Source of the DNA: Isosphaera pallida ATCC 43644
GTDB lineage: Bacteria > Planctomycetota > Planctomycetia > Isosphaerales > Isosphaeraceae
Direction: 5' to 3'
Length of the DNA stretch: 64,000 nt
Assembly: GCF_000186345.1 (NCBI RefSeq)
Contig: NC_014962.1
Location: forward strand, 1,054,001-1,118,000
The stretch's first letter is position 1. Each line of letters begins with the position of its first letter. Made by a program: the position numbers and the translations under genes. The notes below the pieces were generated by a model. The model was not told the DNA's origin. It saw only the letters and a list, made by a program, of their open reading frames with translations, and did not search any database. Shown here piece by piece: positions 19,868 to 26,714 of the stretch.

Positions 19868-20383
19868 TCAACGGGGGGAGTCGAGCAGCTCGGTCAGTCG
19901 GGTCAGTTGAGCACGGAGGGCGGCGAGCTCTTCACGATGAGCGCGTTGACGGGCTTCGTCACGGAGTTGCATCAGTTCGATGTGGCGGCGCAGTTCCGCC
20001 ACTTCGTCGATGTTGGAGGCGGACGGATCGGAGGGGTGGGATTGGTCAGGGGTGGTCTGTGCGGATTCGGTCGGTGCCTGGATTCGAGTGGCGGGAGGGG
20101 TGGCCTCCTGTTTGGGAGGGGTCAGGGCGGGGCAAGTCGTCGCGGCCAGCGAGGAGAGTTCCGGCGAGCGGGTCCACCAATCCAGACCCATCTCGCGGGC
20201 TTTGTCCACCGAGGCGACGACCAGGCGGATCTGGATGGTGAGCAACTCCACGTCCACCAGTTTGATCTTGATGTCGCCCGCGATGACGAGCCCCTTGTCG
20301 AGAACCCGTTCCAGAACGTCAGCGAGGGTCGCTCCCGAGGTAGAGTGGGTCACGTCGGGCCGCGACGATCGGGTGATGGCCAT
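19868..20383 (-). CDS. gvpJ: Gas vesicle protein GvpJ-like with coiled-coil tail
   Basis: Encodes 171 residues. Residues ~15-70 are a GvpA-fold domain (ADVLERVLDKGLVIAGDIKI, then VELLTIQIRLVVASVDKAREMG) with the GLDWW end typical of GvpJ rather than GvpA. GvpJ is a minor shell-related protein needed for assembly. After residue ~75 comes a Pro/Thr/Ser-rich linker of about 45 residues, then a predicted coiled coil (VAELRRHIELMQLRDEARQR onward) to the C-terminus. Typical GvpJ is about 100-130 residues, so the tail is extra. ATG 20383 follows the stop of the zinc-finger gene by one base (TAAGATG), implying translational coupling. It is the last gene of the gvp cluster. Confidence 0.88.
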   Translation of the reverse strand: MAITRSSRPDVTHSTSGATLADVLERVLDKGLVIAGDIKIKLVDVELLTIQIRLVVASVDKAREMGLDWWTRSPELSSLAATTCPALTPPKQEATPPATRIQAPTESAQTTPDQSHPSDPSASNIDEVAELRRHIELMQLRDEARQRAHREELAALRAQLTRLTELLDSPR

Positions 20384-20384
20384 C

Positions 20385-20825
20385 TTAACGAGTCTCCGAT
20401 CCCGTTGCCGGAACGAGGTGGACCGCTTTGCGGAACCGCCCGTTGCGGCCGGAGGTGACGACACCGATGCCTTTGCAGGTGCGACAAGGCATCCCGCTTT
20501 CAGCTTCGTAGCCTCGTCCGCGACAGTCGGGACAAGTTAACAAGGTTCCCGGCGGTCGAGTGACCACGCCGGCTCCTTTGCAAACCGGACAGGCATAGGT
20601 TTTGTGTCGCCCGGTTCCCCGGCAGTAAGCGCAACGCAGGTGGGGGGGCCGCACGTAGACGATCCCATGACCCATACACCGCGAGCAGGTGGAGAGTTCC
20701 GACATGATGCCGAAGGGATCGATTCCAGTTCCGCCGCAAAACGCGCAGGTGACCCAACCCCGTTCCGGGTCGGGAGTGGCGGGACGACGGGATGTCAAGA
20801 TCGGTTCGGCCGGGACATGGGACAT
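20385..20825 (-). CDS. DnaJ-type CxxCxGxG zinc-finger protein in the gvp cluster
   Basis: Encodes 146 residues with six DnaJ-type motifs: CAFCGGTG, CSRCMGHG, CAYCRGTG, CPVCKGAG, CPDCRGRG and CRTCKGIG. DnaJ has four such motifs, binding two zinc ions; six could bind three. There is no J domain or C-terminal substrate domain, so it is not DnaJ itself. Possible roles are a redox or chaperone-like assembly factor, or a nucleic-acid-binding regulator; the sequence does not decide. ATG 20825 has a strong GGGGGGAGG ribosome site upstream and is preferred over 20912. It lies between gvpK and gvpJ and is coupled to gvpJ, so its job is probably in gas vesicle formation (inference). I know of no standard Gvp family with this make-up. 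Confidence 0.85.
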   Translation of the reverse strand: MSHVPAEPILTSRRPATPDPERGWVTCAFCGGTGIDPFGIMSELSTCSRCMGHGIVYVRPPHLRCAYCRGTGRHKTYACPVCKGAGVVTRPPGTLLTCPDCRGRGYEAESGMPCRTCKGIGVVTSGRNGRFRKAVHLVPATGSETR

Positions 20826-20949
20826 TGAACCTCCCCCCTGATTTGATAAAGCCTGACAAATGATAGCGATCGCCAGTGGCGCATCATCGAAGTTGAACGT
20901 ATTTGTCATCAAATGGAACGCTCTGTTTTCGCGCGACGCTCAGACCCGA

Positions 20950-21390
20950 TCAGAGGAGTTTGCCCAGCGGTCCCAGGTCGAGGTTGAGATCCTCGCCTTG
21001 CAGACCGAAATGGGTTTTGAGTTCCTCCATCCGTTGGGCCAGCCGCATCAGGGTCAAGCCGAGACGCTCGGTCTGCTCGTGGTCGAGCGATCCGGCGTCG
21101 AGTCGGCGAATCGCCTGACGTTCCAGCAGTTGGCGAATCAATTCGAGCAGGGTCAAGACGAGTTTTGCCAAACCATCGCCGACCTGTTCGGGGTCCAGGT
21201 CGATCCGGCCTGTCGTGGCATGCGACCTCGCCGAGTTTTCGGCGTTGGGCGGAGCAGTTGCTTGGCGCAGTTGCGCGGTGAGGGTGTCCCAATCCTTGAG
21301 GACGGCGGTCCACTCGTCGGCGACGCCGGGATTGACCGGTGAGGGGGGGGCTGCGGACGGGGATCGAACTTCAAACAGTGAATCGCTCAT
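20950..21390 (-). CDS. gvpK: Gas vesicle protein GvpK
   Basis: Encodes 146 residues. The GvpK signature fills the second half: RIDLDPEQVGDGLAKLVLTL, then LLERQAIRRLDAGSLD and LGLTLMRLAQRMEELKTHFG, ending in DLGPLGKLL. GvpK is an essential assembly protein in most gvp clusters, not a main shell part. The first ~55 residues are variable and Pro/Ala-rich. Its ATG overlaps the stop of the preceding GvpA-family gene (ATGA at 21387-21390), so the two are translationally coupled. Confidence 0.93.
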   Translation of the reverse strand: MSDSLFEVRSPSAAPPSPVNPGVADEWTAVLKDWDTLTAQLRQATAPPNAENSARSHATTGRIDLDPEQVGDGLAKLVLTLLELIRQLLERQAIRRLDAGSLDHEQTERLGLTLMRLAQRMEELKTHFGLQGEDLNLDLGPLGKLL

Positions 21391-21638
21391 TCGATCATCC
21401 CACGGAATTTCCAGCTTTGGGCGGTCTCGACCGAGGTGAGCAGCAGGTTGAGTCCCAAATACACCAGATCAACCCCAGCGACGGAGATGGTGATCTCTCC
21501 ATGAATGACCACGCCTTTGTTCAGAACGCGATCCAACACCTCGCATAACGCAATCCGCTCGGCCGGATCCAGTGGTAAGGTTTCCAGATCGGGCGAGTCG
21601 TAGCACCAAGGAGCGTGGTGAGGAGGGGGAAGGTTCAT
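21387..21638 (-). CDS. Gas vesicle GvpA-family paralogue (GvpS/GvpM-like)
   Basis: Encodes 83 residues with a GvpA-fold core: LCEVLDRVLNKGVVIHGEIT, then ISVAGVDLVYLGLNLLLTSVE. The VDLVYLGLNLLLTSVE form is typical of the minor paralogues GvpS/GvpM rather than shell GvpA, so it probably helps seed or cap the vesicle. An N-terminal extension (MNLPPPHHAPWCYDSPD) is unusual. ATG 21638 was chosen; the open frame upstream to 22091 crosses two other genes antiphase. It sits 16 bp after the TPR-like gene and overlaps gvpK by four bases. Confidence 0.87.
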   Translation of the reverse strand: MNLPPPHHAPWCYDSPDLETLPLDPAERIALCEVLDRVLNKGVVIHGEITISVAGVDLVYLGLNLLLTSVETAQSWKFRGMIE

Positions 21639-21654
21639 GGGCGGACCGATTCGT

Positions 21655-21969
21655 TCAGGAGTTGAGCTTGAGCAGACGATCATAAATCGCTCGGGCGGCG
21701 CGGGGTTCGCCGGCGAGTTCCCGCAAACGGGCCAGGGCCATGAGTCTCTCCTCGGCGAGACCGGCCTCCACGCTGTCGCCGTGGTTCGTAATGAGGTCGA
21801 AATAGATCTCCTGTGCCTGGTTGATCGCGCCGTCGTGGTAGTAGGAGTCGGCCATCGCCAGCAATCGTTGCAGTACCCGCGAGGTTCGCCGTTGGGGTTC
21901 GCTGGAGGCTTCGGAGGAGGTCGTGGCTGCGGAGGGCGGTGGCGAGGGGTGGGATGGAGGGCGGTCCAT
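21655..21969 (-). CDS. Small TPR-like protein in the gvp cluster
   Basis: Encodes 104 residues. After a Ser/Pro-rich N-terminus of ~30 residues come two helix pairs like tetratricopeptide repeats (LAMADSYYHDGAINQAQEIY, then ARLRELAGEPRAARAIYDRL). TPR units bind other proteins. Lying between gvpG and a GvpA-family gene in a tight string (72 bp and 16 bp gaps), it is probably an assembly scaffold or adaptor; this is inference from position. Not a standard Gvp family that I know. ATG 21969 has AAGGA about 10 bases upstream. Confidence 0.75.
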   Translation of the reverse strand: MDRPPSHPSPPPSAATTSSEASSEPQRRTSRVLQRLLAMADSYYHDGAINQAQEIYFDLITNHGDSVEAGLAEERLMALARLRELAGEPRAARAIYDRLLKLNS

Positions 21970-22041
21970 GTTGCATGGTCCTTGACGATGTTTTTGTTTT
22001 GAGAGTCGATTGGCGCGGGCGAACTGGAACCGGCGCTTAGC

Positions 22042-22353
22042 TCACCAGACAGCTTCGGCGGGGTCGTCGTCCTCGACGTCCCAGTCCTCATCCTCCGGGT
22101 CGTCGTCCTCGTCGGAGTTAAACCGTGCGAGTTCCTCCAGGGCGTCGAGTCGATCCAGCAGGTCGGTTTCGAGGGAGGCGAATTCCTCGTCGGTCAATGC
22201 GCCGGTCTCAAGCGCGCGGTAGCACTCGGCCAGTTCCTCGCGGACCTTTTGGGCGTCCCGACGGAGTTCCTCCAACGCCGCTTGGTGAATCTCGCGGAGG
22301 AGGAACATCAGCGAATGGGCTGGGGCAAGCAGGATATCATCGACAAGGAACAT
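22042..22353 (-). CDS. gvpG: Gas vesicle protein GvpG
   Basis: Encodes about 103 residues. The family opening MFLVDDILLAPAHSLMFLLR is clear, followed by a helical coil (EIHQAALEELRRDAQKVREE) and the GALTDEEFASLETDLLDRLD segment typical of GvpG. GvpG is an assembly factor that works with GvpF/L. The tail is strongly acidic (DEDDDPEDEDWDVEDDDP). ATG 22353 begins exactly at the family N-terminus; the ORF upstream to 22401 would add 16 unrelated residues. Confidence 0.92.
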   Translation of the reverse strand: MFLVDDILLAPAHSLMFLLREIHQAALEELRRDAQKVREELAECYRALETGALTDEEFASLETDLLDRLDALEELARFNSDEDDDPEDEDWDVEDDDPAEAVW

Positions 22354-22446
22354 GAGGCGACTCCATCCAAGGGGCGTCGGAGAGGAAACCGACCGGTTCA
22401 AGCGGACGGCGAGACACGGCGGGCCGGCTGGGACACGCTGGAGGCG

Positions 22447-23286
22447 TCACTCCTCCTCGTCGTCGTCGTGGTCGTCGTCGAGGTCGAGATCGACGAAGTG
22501 GTGGGGAGGCCAGGGACCGGTGAGTTCCAACACCAGGTCGTCTTCAAGTTCTTCGGCGAGGCGGTCGAGGGCGGCCTCGAATCCGGCGCGGCGTTGGTTC
22601 TCGATCAGACAGGCCCAGTGGACCAGGTCGCGTTCGTCGCGGAGGTCCTCTTCGACCAGTTCGCTGAGAAGCGGAGACAACGCGGCGCGTAAGTAGGCGG
22701 CGTAGTGGTCGCGTTGGCGTTCCAAAGCGTGATGGAACCGCCGCCCCAGGTCGAGCGATTGATCGCGGGTTGGGGTTTGGCCGTTGCTGTAGAGTTGGTC
22801 ACGAAGTTGACGTAGTTCGGGGTCGCGGCCCAGAACGGCTTGGGCGACGTTGTCCGGGGCCCAGCGGAGTTTGACGGTCATTTCGACCTTGCCCTGAACC
22901 CGGACTAGACCCTCAGCGATGGCCGCGCTGTGGTGTCGCAGCAGAGCGCGCAGATCCTCCTCGGAATCGGCCACCATGCCGAAGCTGGCGGGGAGAATAG
23001 CCTTGCCGAGCGTGTCTTGAAGATGCTTGAGCACATGATGATGACCGGCAACCCGTTGCCGTTCGGGCCGGACCTTGCCCAGGGGGCAGGGGCTGACGAC
23101 TGCGGCGACACGGCCGTCGGCCACGACCACTACCCGCGCGCCAGGAAGACCTTCGAGGTCGGCGAGGGGACCTTCGGGCAGGTCGTGAGTGAAAGCGTAG
23201 AGGTAACGGGCCGGACCGTCGATGACCGGCTTGCCGGGCGAGGCGGGTGTAACGGAACCGGGTCGGGTTGGGGGAGCGTTCCTCAT
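22447..23286 (-). CDS. gvpF: Gas vesicle protein GvpF/GvpL
   Basis: Encodes 279 residues. Residues ~25-265 are the two-domain GvpF/L fold: RYLYAFTHDLPEGPLADLEG at the start, RVAAVVSPCPLG, HHHVLKHLQDTLGKAILPASFG, then VEMTVKLRWAPD, and a helical region ending with LVHWACLIENQRRAGFEAAL. GvpF/L proteins bind GvpA and are essential for assembly. Only one member is in this cluster, whereas many clusters have separate GvpF and GvpL; F versus L cannot be decided by eye. The last ~12 residues are all acidic (DLDLDDDHDDDEEE), matching the acidic tail of GvpG next door. Start ATG 23286. Confidence 0.92.
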   Translation of the reverse strand: MRNAPPTRPGSVTPASPGKPVIDGPARYLYAFTHDLPEGPLADLEGLPGARVVVVADGRVAAVVSPCPLGKVRPERQRVAGHHHVLKHLQDTLGKAILPASFGMVADSEEDLRALLRHHSAAIAEGLVRVQGKVEMTVKLRWAPDNVAQAVLGRDPELRQLRDQLYSNGQTPTRDQSLDLGRRFHHALERQRDHYAAYLRAALSPLLSELVEEDLRDERDLVHWACLIENQRRAGFEAALDRLAEELEDDLVLELTGPWPPHHFVDLDLDDDHDDDEEE

Positions 23287-23506
23287 GGGGGCGGTGGCCT
23301 ACTTGGGGAGGACTCGGGGCGAGGAACCGGATTGAAGACTGGGCCCTTCCCTCCTTGGGTTGCCTCGGATCGGGGCGTATCACGAGCGTGTGGTCAGGTG
23401 CGGAGGGACCGGTCAAGAAGCCAAGTTTGGGGATATCCCGCGAGTCGACCAACGGTGTTTCAAGTTTGGGGCATGATCCCGCCGGAGGTCAAGCGTGCTG
23501 GGCGGA

Positions 23507-23938
23507 TCAATACGAGAGTTCGACCACTCGGACCGAGCCGCCGGCGGGAACGGTGGGGGGCGACGAAACGAAGGCGACTGCCGGGCGGCGCGACTCCGGT
23601 TCGGACGATTCGGAGACGCCGCCGCGCGATTTTGGGTCGGAGGCTTCTAGGGTCTTGACTGGCTCGCCGGGCGTCGGTAGGCCGGCCGACGCTTCGACCA
23701 GCCGCATCAGCTCCCGTTCCTTGCGGTCCAGTTCGGCCAGGCGAGCTTGAATCTCGACATGACGCCTTCGCATCCGTGCCAATTCCTGGCCCAGCAGGTG
23801 ACGCTCGTTGGCCATCACCGAGAGTTCCATCAACGCGCCGGAGCGGTTGCGGACGCGGCGGGCGTCGGAGAGTCGCCCCATCGTTTTGATGACGCGCATT
23901 CCGCGGCGGACGGGTTCACCGGAGGTGGGCATGGCCAT
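23507..23938 (-). CDS. Coiled-coil protein overlapping gvpN
   Basis: Encodes about 143 residues. The centre (about residues 25-85) is a charged helix likely to form a coiled coil (MANERHLLGQELARMRRRHV, then QARLAELDRKERELMRLVEA). The C-terminal third is Ser/Pro/Glu-rich and looks disordered. No Gvp family was recognised with confidence. Its start (ATG 23938, or ATG 23932 two codons later) overlaps the end of gvpN (23916), so it is coupled to gvpN and belongs to the cluster. It could be an assembly or shell-binding helper; that is inference. Confidence 0.65.
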   Translation of the reverse strand: MAMPTSGEPVRRGMRVIKTMGRLSDARRVRNRSGALMELSVMANERHLLGQELARMRRRHVEIQARLAELDRKERELMRLVEASAGLPTPGEPVKTLEASDPKSRGGVSESSEPESRRPAVAFVSSPPTVPAGGSVRVVELSY

Positions 23939-24953
23939 TGGCTCCCGGAGGGGGTGAGGCACTGGCAGCAAGGGGTCGGCGAGGGATTGGGACAACGCGG
24001 TTGGCCGCGAAGCCGGTCGTTGGAACGCGCGGGGGCGCGACCGCCGGGGTGGGAGCGAAGACGCGACGAATCAGCTCGGCAAAGGTGGCTTCGGGGTCGT
24101 CCACCGGCAGCGCGTCGATTCGCAGCACGTCGCGGCAGATCGCCAAAAAGAGCGCGTCGTTGGGGTCGATCGGCACCTTGCGAAGCGCAGCGACCTTGGC
24201 AATCATCAGACAGGAGCGGATCGTCGGGGGATGACGCAGCGGCTTCAATGCCCGCACGGCACGGGCGAGTTCGACAATACGGGCGGCCTCGTCGCGGGAG
24301 AGTCCCGACTTGGCGGCGGTGATCTCGGTTTCGGTCGCCTCGTCGTGACCGCCCATCGAAATTGTGATCATGCGATCGAGTAAAGCGTCCTGAGTCTTGT
24401 GGACCCCGGCATATTCTTCGGGGTTGCTGGTGAAGATAGCTCGGAATTCGGGATGGACCCGCAGCGGGCCCGAGCCGTCGCGTCCGCCGGCGATGGGAGG
24501 CAGCTCCAGCAGACGTTCCTCCAAGATGGTCAGCAGAATGTTGTTGGCTTCAGGCCGGGAGCGGTTGAATTCGTCGTAGATCAGGGTGAAACCGTGGCGG
24601 CAGGCGGTGGTGAGGCGATGGTCCACCCAAGTCTTGGAAACCGATTGTTCGGTTTTGACCACGGAATGAATGAAGTTGTCCACCACTTTGGTGGAGCGGA
24701 ATCCCAGGTGGTCGCCCACCAGGTCGGAGGAACCGAATTCGTCGTCGCCATGAAGCAACACCACGGGGCGGTTGACCAACGCCGCCAGGTGCATCGCTAG
24801 GGTGGTCTTGCCGGTGCCGGCCGGCCCAGAGAAGTGGACGGGGTAGCCTGCGGTCAGGTATCCCAGGGCCCGGTCGGCCAGCTCGCGCACCCAGGGGGTG
24901 GCGACGAAGTCGGGACGGGGTTTGAGTTGCAGGGCAGTTGATTCGTAGTCCAC
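23916..24953 (-). CDS. gvpN: Gas vesicle AAA+ ATPase GvpN
   Basis: Encodes 345 residues. This MoxR-like AAA+ ATPase has Walker A HFSGPAGTGKTTLAMHL near residue 45, Walker B FTLIYDEFNRSRPEANN near 125, sensor 1 FRAIFTSNPEEYAGVH near 170, and an arginine-finger region DALLDRMITISMGG. GvpN is conserved in nearly all gvp clusters and drives vesicle enlargement together with GvpC in cyanobacteria. The last ~50 residues are Pro/Ala/Arg-rich and variable. It starts at GTG 24953 (MDYESTALQL), 299 bp after the GvpC-like gene. No function was seen in that spacer. Confidence 0.95.
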   Translation of the reverse strand: MDYESTALQLKPRPDFVATPWVRELADRALGYLTAGYPVHFSGPAGTGKTTLAMHLAALVNRPVVLLHGDDEFGSSDLVGDHLGFRSTKVVDNFIHSVVKTEQSVSKTWVDHRLTTACRHGFTLIYDEFNRSRPEANNILLTILEERLLELPPIAGGRDGSGPLRVHPEFRAIFTSNPEEYAGVHKTQDALLDRMITISMGGHDEATETEITAAKSGLSRDEAARIVELARAVRALKPLRHPPTIRSCLMIAKVAALRKVPIDPNDALFLAICRDVLRIDALPVDDPEATFAELIRRVFAPTPAVAPPRVPTTGFAANRVVPIPRRPLAASASPPPGANGHAHLR

Positions 24954-25252
24954 GGTGGTGAGTCAACCTGGAAGGGACGAGGGGGGAACCTTGGCAACGC
25001 GCGGAGGCGAATGGTCGCAATGACGCGACACGTGACTCTAGGACGTGCGCGGCGCGATGCCAAGCCATGCGGTTGCGATTTCCGGTTGGAGCGGGATTGA
25101 CCCACGCGGCGGAGCTTGGCGAACCAGTTGGTGACCTTTGCGACGCCGCATGGGTCGAGGGAACAGCACAGCGCTGTCGGGAGGGTTGACGAGGAACGGA
25201 GCCGAACCAGGTTGAACTTGGTTCAGCCGATGGGGAGTCGTTGAGGTTGAGT

Positions 25253-25897
25253 TCAACGTCCCCGGCGGCCAGCGAATTCACGCCAAATCGCGGCGGCTTG
25301 GTTCAGATCAGCGGCGACGACGGCCCGTTCGGCTTGAAAGCGCTCACGGAGGGCGGCCACGTTGTCGCGGATACTCTGGGTTGCTTCCGCGAGGTCAGCG
25401 CGAAGGTTGTCCGCCATGCGTTGATGATCCTCACGGATCTGCTGACGGAGTTCGGCGACCTCGTCGGCCAGTTCGGCACGACCTTCGGCAAGGGCGGCGT
25501 GCAGATGTGCTGCCATCGCGTCGTGATCAGCCCGCATCGCCTCGACGTTGGCGCGGGCGGTTTCCAGGATCTGCTCAGTGGCCTGGAACACGCCGGTGAG
25601 GAAGCTTTTGCGTTCGGCGTCCGACCCACGAATGGAATCTACTAGGTTGCGGATGCCTTCGGAAAAAGGTCCGACCACATGAGCCGAGGCCGACGCAAGG
25701 GACGGAGCCGTCGGGGTGGCCGAGACACCGGGACGGGGCGACGGAGCCGCCGCGGTTTGGGGTGGGGGTGTGGAAGCGACGGGACGGTTTGGCATTGCGG
25801 CGGAACGCGCCGCCATGCCGCCGGGATTGACGCCCGAAGCGCCCACTACCCGGGGACCGACCGGGCGGGGAGGGGGGGGAGGAGGCACTTTGGCCAT
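25253..25897 (-). CDS. GvpC-like protein with ~33-residue helical repeats
   Basis: Encodes 214 residues. Residues 1-75 are Pro/Ala-rich and low-complexity (AKVPPPPPPRP). Residues 88-214 fall into units of 33: 88-120 (degenerate), 121-153, 154-186, and 187-214 (short). Units 121-153 and 154-186 share 15 of 33 positions, with pattern R-x-D-H-x-x-M-A-x-x-L-x-A-x-L-A-E, then V-A-x-L-R. Cyanobacterial GvpC, which clamps the outside of the gas vesicle shell and strengthens it, is built from 33-residue repeats and is encoded right after gvpA, as here. Sequence identity to known GvpC was not judged, so the name is based on repeat length, helical content and position. ATG 25897 was chosen over the ORF start at 25975. 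Confidence 0.72.
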   Translation of the reverse strand: MAKVPPPPPPRPVGPRVVGASGVNPGGMAARSAAMPNRPVASTPPPQTAAAPSPRPGVSATPTAPSLASASAHVVGPFSEGIRNLVDSIRGSDAERKSFLTGVFQATEQILETARANVEAMRADHDAMAAHLHAALAEGRAELADEVAELRQQIREDHQRMADNLRADLAEATQSIRDNVAALRERFQAERAVVAADLNQAAAIWREFAGRRGR

Positions 25898-26095
25898 AAG
25901 CGAGTCTCCGATGGGACCGGAACCATTCATCCTTCCAAGAACACCAACCAAGCTGTTGAACACGCGGACCCTCATGGTTGCTCAGTCGGCCGCGGCTCAT
26001 CTTGAGAGAAGGCGGCCGATCGGAGGCATACGCGCTTCCACTGACGAAGATTCACTCGAACCACCGTTTGTTGGATTGGGGCTTGGGAAACGGAA

Positions 26096-26109
26096 GACCG
26101 GCTCCGGTC
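26096..26109 (-). terminator. Small hairpin just past gvpA
   Basis: The palindrome GACCGGCTCCGGTC starts 17 bases past the gvpA stop on the minus strand. It could stabilise the gvpA mRNA or partly stop transcription so that shell protein is made in excess over the GvpC-like protein. The stem is short and no T-tract follows, so support is weak. Confidence 0.25.
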
Positions 26110-26125
26110 GGACCGACGGGACGGG

Positions 26126-26344
26126 TCAGGCCGGCGTCGCCGCCGAGGCAGTCAACCCGATCGCTTCGGCATACTTCAGGTAGGTTTCGACCGAGGCGAT
26201 CACCACCCGCGCTTCGACCGACAGCAGTTCGATGCCGACCAGCGACACTTTGGCGAAGGCGTCGATGACAATGCCCTTGTCCAGAATCCGGTCCACCACT
26301 TCGGCCAGGCTGGAGCTATCGGTGGACTTGGTGACTTTGGCCAT
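26126..26344 (-). CDS. gvpA: Gas vesicle shell protein GvpA
   Basis: Encodes 72 residues, the normal GvpA length. It is the main shell protein, forming the ribs of the gas-filled cylinder. The family core is very clear: [20 protein letters not shown], then [20 protein letters not shown] and [20 protein letters not shown] 26344 has GGAG 8 bases upstream and gives the standard N-terminus; the ORF start at 26371 adds 9 odd residues. It is the first gene of the minus-strand gvp cluster, separated from the GvpC-like gene by 228 bp that hold a small hairpin. Confidence 0.96.
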
Positions 26345-26714
26345 GATTGCGACTCCGTGGAGCGTGAGCAAGGGGAGGAACCCACCGTCCGGCCAATCGA
26401 CCGACCGGCGCGGAAACGTCCGACAGTCGCCTCGTCGCGTCGGGTCGAGCGGCTCGCAACCGCCGCGACATGCGGATCAACTCGTCGGTTTCATCCCCTG
26501 GAGCAACTGGTGTGCCAACCCACTTATTCACTTCGTTGAGATCGATTTGGTCGGAATTTCGCGTGACGACGCTTGAAGTCGATCCAACCGGAACGAGCAG
26601 AACCCGGCGCGGGTTCCCCGATCTTGGGGAACGGATTCCCGTCTCGTCGCGGAGTCGGATCCGGGCAGAGGAATGAACGTGGCGTGACGATGCGGGGACG
26701 CGGGCTGTCCAGCG
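26345..26714 (-). promoter_or_regulatory. Leader/promoter region of the gvp cluster
   Basis: This 370-bp gap lies between the SDR gene end and gvpA. It should contain the gvp promoter and 5' leader, and part is somewhat AT-richer (26516-26575). I could not pick -35/-10 boxes with confidence. The ribosome site GGAG lies 8 bases before gvpA. Stem-loops at 26601-26640 are listed separately. Confidence 0.45.
26601..26640. other. Tandem and mutually exclusive stem-loops upstream of gvpA
   Basis: First hairpin: AACCCG-GCG-CGGGTT at 26601-26615. Second: GTTCCCC-GATCTT-GGGGAAC at 26613-26632. Third, using the same GGGAA: GGGAA-CGGA-TTCCC at 26627-26640. The second overlaps both others, so they cannot all form at once. 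They begin about 75 bp past the SDR stop, so they may terminate that transcript or control read-through into gvpA. No T-tract is present. Confidence 0.4.

Follow-up and report, generated by a model that had tools for sequence, protein, structure and literature searches.

A gas vesicle operon of Isosphaera pallida with a Serratia-type gene order and three candidate assembly genes

A gas vesicle cluster of 11 minus-strand genes, running from gvpA1 (26344) to gvpA3/gvpJ (19868), lies in a 64,000-nucleotide stretch of the planctomycete Isosphaera pallida ATCC 43644 (contig NC_014962.1, positions 1,054,001 to 1,118,000; hereafter the window), whose genome comprises 5,529,304 bases in two contigs. 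Three of these genes, encoding a coiled-coil protein, a small tetratricopeptide repeat (TPR) protein, and a DnaJ-type zinc-finger protein, are interspersed among recognizable gvp genes in the order gvpA1-C-N-(coiled coil)-F-G-(TPR)-A2-K-(zinc finger)-A3. Our overall reading, held with moderate confidence, is an operon with the layout of the Serratia left operon and a probable sigma-54 promoter, in which these three genes encode dedicated assembly factors, namely GvpV, a scaffold in the GvpW slot, and a DnaJ-type holding chaperone. The features are as follows.

26502-26517, minus strand: perfect sigma-54 promoter consensus TGGCACACCAGTTGCT, starting 173 bp upstream of gvpA1
26126-26344, minus strand: gvpA1, shell protein, 72 aa (Pfam Gas_vesicle, 58 bits)
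25253-25975, minus strand: GvpC-like protein, 240 aa, start codon uncertain (33-residue period; position gvpA-C-N)
23916-24953, minus strand: gvpN, AAA+ ATPase, 345 aa (NCBIfam TIGR02640, 355.5 bits, cut-off 266.8)
23507-23938, minus strand: coiled-coil protein, probable GvpV, 143 aa, start codon uncertain (slot after gvpN; family profile)
22447-23286, minus strand: gvpF/L, 279 aa (Pfam GvpL_GvpF, 212 bits)
22042-22353, minus strand: gvpG, 103 aa (Pfam GvpG, 47 bits)
21655-21969, minus strand: small TPR protein in the GvpW slot, 104 aa (TPR_14, 24.4 bits)
21387-21638, minus strand: gvpA2, GvpS/M-like by slot, 83 aa (Pfam Gas_vesicle, 66 bits)
20950-21390, minus strand: gvpK, 146 aa (Pfam GvpK, 118 bits)
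20385-20825, minus strand: DnaJ-type zinc-finger protein, 146 aa, six CxxC motifs, no J domain (Pfam DnaJ_CXXCXGXG, 43 bits)
19868-20383, minus strand: gvpA3/gvpJ, 171 aa (GvpA/GvpJ NCBIfam, about 50 bits, under the cut-offs)

Cluster layout and promoter

The presence of gvpA together with gvpN, gvpF/L, gvpG, gvpK, and J-type genes, as assigned by Pfam and NCBIfam, identifies the stretch as a gas vesicle cluster. The original prediction, made from the letters of the window, had placed these genes on the minus strand at positions that the reading frames confirm. Its calls of A, F/L, G, the A paralogue, and K were borne out by Pfam and that of N by NCBIfam, and the J-type gene resembled GvpA/GvpJ at scores under the cut-offs. 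The product of gvpA3/gvpJ has a GvpA-like N-terminal part plus a C-terminal extension, and contains one of the three Gas_vesicle domains above the Pfam cut-off in the genome. The predicted tight spacing of the additional genes was also found, with a 23-bp overlap between gvpN and the coiled-coil gene, a 16-bp gap between the TPR gene and gvpA2, and a 1-bp gap between the zinc-finger gene and gvpA3; gvpA2 and gvpK overlap by 4 bp, and 124 bp separate gvpK from the zinc-finger gene.

The best repeat period in the helical part of the GvpC-like protein was 33 residues (z 5.7 against shuffles), followed by 7 and 11, and 33 residues is the known repeat period of GvpC. The gene between gvpA1 and gvpN thus appears compatible with gvpC in both position and period, as had been predicted, though the protein gave no Pfam Gas_vesicle_C (PF01304) match at E<=1 (160 bits for a Nostoc GvpC control). 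Gas vesicles have been reported for the hot-spring planctomycete Isosphaera pallida IS1B; looking for gvp in the main text of the same genome paper gave no result (PMC3072084).

The published gene order of Serratia sp. ATCC 39006 is A1-C-N-V-F1-G-W-A2-K-X-A3-Y (PMC9501494, Table 1). The Isosphaera cluster shares 11 slots with this operon in the same order, including three GvpA-type genes and a gene between gvpN and gvpF, and its three additional genes fall at V, W, and X. Inspection of the neighbouring frames by eye revealed nothing corresponding to gvpY or to the second Serratia operon (gvrA, gvpH, Z, F2, F3, gvrB, gvrC), among which only GvpF/L was searched by profile.

The sigma-54 consensus at 26502-26517 is the sole match in the 64 kb (mean of 0.03 in shuffles) and probably drives the Isosphaera operon. 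A looser sigma-54 pattern, run without a chance control, occurred 20-450 bp before a gvpA-type gene in nine of 100 other loci; these represent eight distinct contigs, because L121 repeats L044. Scans for sigma-70 promoters and terminators did no better than shuffles. Sigma-54-dependent regulators are annotated near the gvp clusters of L150 and L153.

Distribution of the three additional genes

For a survey of gas vesicle clusters, the 80 best of 461 confirmed GvpN relatives from a species-level genome collection were combined with 20 stretches from genomes of the phylum and annotated with iterated profiles. Dropping five duplicates and adding the window gave 96 loci with at least part of gvpN, of which 84 carried the coiled-coil gene, 42 the zinc-finger gene, and 25 the TPR gene. 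Since many loci are short contigs, the absence counts are upper bounds, and since the survey leans to relatives of Isosphaera GvpN, its fractions should not be taken as frequencies in gas vesicles at large. The sample was drawn apart from the known Bacillus and Streptomyces clusters, and one haloarchaeal and one cyanobacterial cluster were examined separately. Genome-wide counts covered 392 genomes of the phylum, with thresholds of E<=1e-10 for the zinc finger and E<=1e-8 for the TPR protein, and 45 genomes of the family.

Within the phylum, relatives of the three genes occurred almost exclusively in gas vesicle clusters: 26 of 27 genome hits (11 zinc finger, 13 coiled coil, 3 TPR) lay beside gvp genes, and the remaining hit, a coiled coil, lay at a contig end. 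These counts strongly support the prediction that all three encode parts of gas vesicles, and neither of the outcomes named beforehand as telling against it, homologues mainly outside gvp clusters or absence from the gvp clusters of close relatives, was seen. A quick tree of GvpN from 67 clusters did require 14 or more changes in zinc-finger presence, as might befit passengers unrelated to gas vesicles; in view of the genome-wide counts we reject that explanation, which retains next to no chance of being correct. None of the three genes is special to planctomycetes. The cluster is best described as a known organelle operon with one likely known part now extended to many phyla, one part placed by its slot, and one that is widespread and apparently unnamed. 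The further prediction that all three are undescribed parts stands, within the literature searched, for the zinc finger, and not for the coiled coil, a probable GvpV, or for the TPR protein, which occupies the GvpW slot.

The coiled-coil gene lies between gvpN and gvpF, as does gvpV in Serratia-type operons, and Serratia GvpV is likewise a small helical protein; by this position, the protein is probably GvpV. It directly follows gvpN as the next annotated gvp gene in 82 of the 84 carrying loci (511 bp apart in L106), the exceptions being a rearranged cluster (L047) and an ordering artefact (L045, on the same contig as L126, which reads N-coiled coil-F). No curated Pfam or NCBIfam cut-off was reached by the 143-aa protein. 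A family profile built without Isosphaeraceae nevertheless recovered it at 64.6 bits, and family members score at least 48 bits, except for one cut by a contig end, against 14.9 bits for the best outside open reading frame. An N-terminal RGxxxIRT stretch is moderately conserved in the family, and the predicted structure consists of a short helix and one long helix (residues 32-85) with low-confidence ends. Searches of solved structures with the coiled-coil and TPR proteins gave no useful match.

On plasmids of Methylosinus, Methylocella, and Spartinivicinus, the profile matched the gene after gvpN (58, 76, and 43 bits, respectively; all annotated as hypothetical), and in Octadecabacter it weakly matched a frame after gvpN (18 bits). 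A broad profile also reached, at 28.8 bits, the gene of Nostoc that occupies the GvpV slot of cyanobacteria (G-V-W); noise in another open reading frame set was 14.9 bits. This slot gene on the Nostoc sphaeroides plasmid (L151 8612-8926, minus strand) is annotated opposite to the rest of its cluster. A plasmid search with a Rhodoferax coiled coil (L054) found none at E<=0.01. As of 2016, reported GvpV homologues were confined to five species of proteobacteria (PMC4982088), whereas the coiled-coil family found here spans many phyla. With a GvpV-like gene after gvpN in most surveyed clusters, a supposed proteobacterial accessory is likely to be a general bacterial partner of GvpN.

The TPR protein scored 24.4 bits with TPR_14, barely above the cut-off of 23.5, so the predicted TPR-like character was upheld by a narrow Pfam match. 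Its gene lies between gvpG and gvpA2, which is the position of gvpW in the published Serratia order. Because cyanobacterial GvpW is reported to be related to GvpF/L, the comparison is limited to the W slot of Serratia. Relatives of the TPR gene stood between gvpG and a gvpA-type gene in 19 of 25 placements, found in Isosphaeraceae, beta- and gammaproteobacteria, and an acidobacterium; the three phylum genomes with a hit (3/392) all had it at gvp genes. MamA, the TPR scaffold of magnetosomes, is likewise a small TPR protein of an organelle cluster and weakly matched 4 of 22 TPR relatives by NCBIfam; however, other models matched more of them (YbgF 19/22, BamD 10/22), and homology with MamA is not clear. 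A TPR relative (106 bits) also lies near the end of the gvp cluster on a Methylocella tundrae plasmid (L153 16494-16784).

The zinc-finger protein

The likeliest start of the zinc-finger gene is the ATG at 20825, which follows GGGGGGAGG and gives a protein of 146 aa. Its six CxxC motifs, noted in the original prediction, matched the Pfam DnaJ zinc-finger model, which was the sole model of that protein to match: no J-domain or C-terminal-domain hit was found by Pfam. The 12 cysteines are invariant among the sequences with letters at those positions, save one that is kept in 47 of 48. A DPFGIMS stretch follows the first pair; residues D36, P37, and F38 are at least 90% conserved and lie outside the region aligning to E. 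coli DnaJ. An hhalign comparison with the E. coli DnaJ fingers gave a probability of 96.6, and the scores remained below the cut-offs for NCBIfam DnaJ_bact (45 bits, cut-off 377), the NCBIfam anti-TRAP model RtpA (37.3 bits, cut-off 65), and Pfam BSD2 (24.4 bits, cut-off 27). No Gvp model of Pfam or NCBIfam was reached, and no published description was found in the literature searched, which excluded most subscription papers.

The predicted structure has a confident core (mean predicted local distance difference test score, pLDDT, of 84). The seven top-ranking fold hits comprised fingers of DnaJ and of anti-TRAP together with chains from Rubisco assembly complexes, of which two bear the title BSD2. 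A search of solved structures likewise pointed to DnaJ fingers and anti-TRAP, the VIA search returned one row, a chain of a Rubisco-BSD2 complex, and no PDB entry matched the fold at E<=0.001.

All 11 phylum genomes with the zinc finger (11/392) have gvp genes on the same contig. In the family, zinc finger and GvpK occurred in the same 7 of 45 genomes and in none of the 38 others (Fisher p 2e-8). When ten genomes were searched with the window protein, seven gave E of about 2e-14 or better; the rest of the matches listed were a second short copy in G438 (5e-14) and DnaJ-size frames (about 360-410 aa) at 6e-7 or weaker, and the best match in the three genomes lacking a gvp zinc finger was 2e-4 or weaker. 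By record titles, carriers belong to Planctomycetota, Deltaproteobacteria, Rokubacteria, Nitrospirae, Acidobacteria, Verrucomicrobia, Chloroflexi, and others. A plasmid search gave five records at E 2e-4 or weaker, of which the three annotated were all DnaJ-type.

Among 49 placements, the zinc-finger gene was the next annotated gene before gvpN in 27 and came after the coiled coil in 10; in six, the window and five close relatives, it lay between gvpK and gvpA3, the position of gvpX in Serratia. In L122, another member of the family, it precedes gvpN. Second, diverged zinc-finger genes were observed after the GvpV-like gene in L069, L070, L075, L079, and L082, and the sole copy found in L077 and L097 follows it as well. 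Another phylum genome has four tandem copies beside a gvpA-type gene (L167 958-2510). In searches of PHROGs, the zinc finger and the GvpC-like gene had weak short matches and the coiled coil and TPR protein had none; eight stretches of viral contigs fitted a GvpN pattern, and none was confirmed.

Proposed roles and alternative explanations

In the assembly scheme that we propose, the coiled-coil protein would work with the ATPase GvpN to let the first bicones grow into cylinders, and the small TPR protein, in the GvpW slot, would serve as a scaffold. The zinc fingers would hold the aggregation-prone GvpA-like subunits (A1, A2, and J/A3), which GvpF/L and GvpN would then build in. Zinc fingers of the DnaJ type contribute to the binding of unfolded chains, and Rubisco has a zinc-finger-only assembly chaperone, BSD2, with four motifs. 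BSD2 and its kin share CxxCxGxG fingers and the lack of a J domain with the protein described here, which differs from BSD2 in having six motifs, a bacterial origin, an additional DPFGIMS stretch, and a weak fold match. Because of these DnaJ and BSD2 precedents and the location of the gene 1 bp before gvpA3/gvpJ, we infer that it is likely a DnaJ-type holding chaperone for GvpA-like subunits. Gas vesicle biologists have yet to explain how hydrophobic GvpA subunits stay soluble and become inserted. Bacillus megaterium GvpA2 and GvpJ form species insoluble in sodium dodecyl sulfate, and it was suggested that other Gvps may act as their chaperones (PMC11445434). Not every native cluster functions after transfer to a new host: of 15 gvp operons cloned, only five clusters gave detectable vesicles in E. 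coli, with missing genes as one suggested reason (PMC10344784). The chaperone-like zinc finger, which is present in clusters of many phyla and falls outside the curated gvp models, is a specific candidate for such a missing part in gvp transfer. For the coiled coil, Serratia mutants in gvpV and in gvpN both halt at small bicones, and neither complements the other (PMC4982088).

Several observations weigh against this reading. The equivalence of the three genes to Serratia V, W, and X was drawn from position and not from comparison with the Serratia sequences; we infer that of the coiled-coil and TPR proteins to V and W in this way. A review classes GvpV to GvpZ as non-essential (PMC9501494), contrary to the 2016 gvpV finding. 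Deletion of gvpW left vesicles in Serratia, yet lowered or abolished the signal in E. coli, and deletion of gvpX left vesicles natively and gave one stronger ultrasound signal with reduced opacity in E. coli (PMC10344784); if gvpX belongs to the zinc-finger family, this mild effect implies a mild role. Two TPR relatives (L136, L138) follow gvpN, outside the W slot, and an hhalign comparison of a narrower GvpV alignment with the Nostoc protein alone failed (probability 6). The zinc-finger fold matches are weak (Foldseek E 0.066 or worse; VIA Z 2.4). Among the 14 genomes over the GvpN cut-off, three lack the coiled coil and seven the zinc finger, which was also not seen in 54 of the 96 surveyed loci (some of them short contigs) or in any of six plasmid gvp clusters, indicating that it is not a universal need. 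On the GvpN tree, built from untrimmed frames and with the window on a long branch, presence changed three times for the TPR protein, four times for the coiled coil, and at least 14 times for the zinc finger, which has thus often been gained or lost.

The zinc finger might instead be an anti-TRAP-like regulator, binding a regulatory protein or RNA to tune gvp expression. RtpA matched every one of the 29 family members tested (best E 1.1e-16) and anti-TRAP was among the top fold hits. However, the similarity is confined to a short CxxCxGxG stretch, and anti-TRAP chains have about 53 residues against 146 in the six-motif protein; the gene also occupies varying positions next to structural and assembly genes (ahead of gvpN, following the coiled coil, or ahead of gvpA3), so that we regard such a role as unlikely. 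The location of the gene between the GvpC-like gene and gvpN, as the next annotated gene in 20 of 49 placements, would suit a minor structural piece such as a rib cross-link or a tip element bound with GvpC, and haloarchaeal GvpC bears its own zinc-finger motif (PMC9501494). However, the operon slot varies, and the one haloarchaeal GvpC examined (L155) has a single CxxC and two histidines without CxxCxGxG, leaving no visible shared ancestry; a structural role is quite unlikely in our estimate. On the same single GvpC, we rejected an origin of the zinc finger as a split-off GvpC domain. For the coiled coil, a partner of GvpN unrelated to GvpV by descent could occupy the same slot, comparable to haloarchaeal GvpO. 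Coiled coils are easily over-matched and the direct profile match to the Nostoc candidate failed; the clear score gap between family and noise, the RGxxxIRT stretch, and the occupation of the Serratia gvpV slot make this distinctly improbable compared with descent from GvpV. The one haloarchaeal GvpO tested showed no similarity to the coiled coil, which agrees with an unrelated partner and led us to reject the coiled coil as GvpO itself.

A further proposal concerns ArsA-type ATPases, whose genes have previously been reported in gvp clusters (PMC2963123). The gene of about 2 kb after gvpG encodes a two-domain ArsA-type ATPase in L054 (12736-14760), L090 (9051-11099), L129 (5671-7959), and L094 (12527-14695). 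ArsA is also present in eight of the clusters that have the TPR gene and no zinc finger, and in the three examined (L048, L054, L062) it lies between gvpG and the TPR gene. In the Isosphaera genome, only two partial ArsA matches were found (25-26 bits). ArsA occurred in 1 of 10 clusters with both zinc finger and TPR, compared with 38 of 57 others (p 0.001), an inverse link that is suggestive only, as at least seven of the 10 clusters belong to one family and the ArsA-bearing L047 is near kin too. We tentatively suggest, at somewhat less than even odds, that the zinc finger is an unnamed multi-phylum gas vesicle assembly factor, a J-less DnaJ cassette holding GvpA-type subunits, which in Isosphaeraceae replaces, together with the TPR protein, the ArsA-type ATPase found in many other clusters and absent here.

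The Isosphaera genome has two more GvpF/L genes well away from the cluster (L187 1474-2355, 115.6 bits; L188 1468-2490, 54.7 bits). The profiles used found no other gvp family within the 8 kb surrounding each of them, and they are possible counterparts of Serratia F2 and F3.

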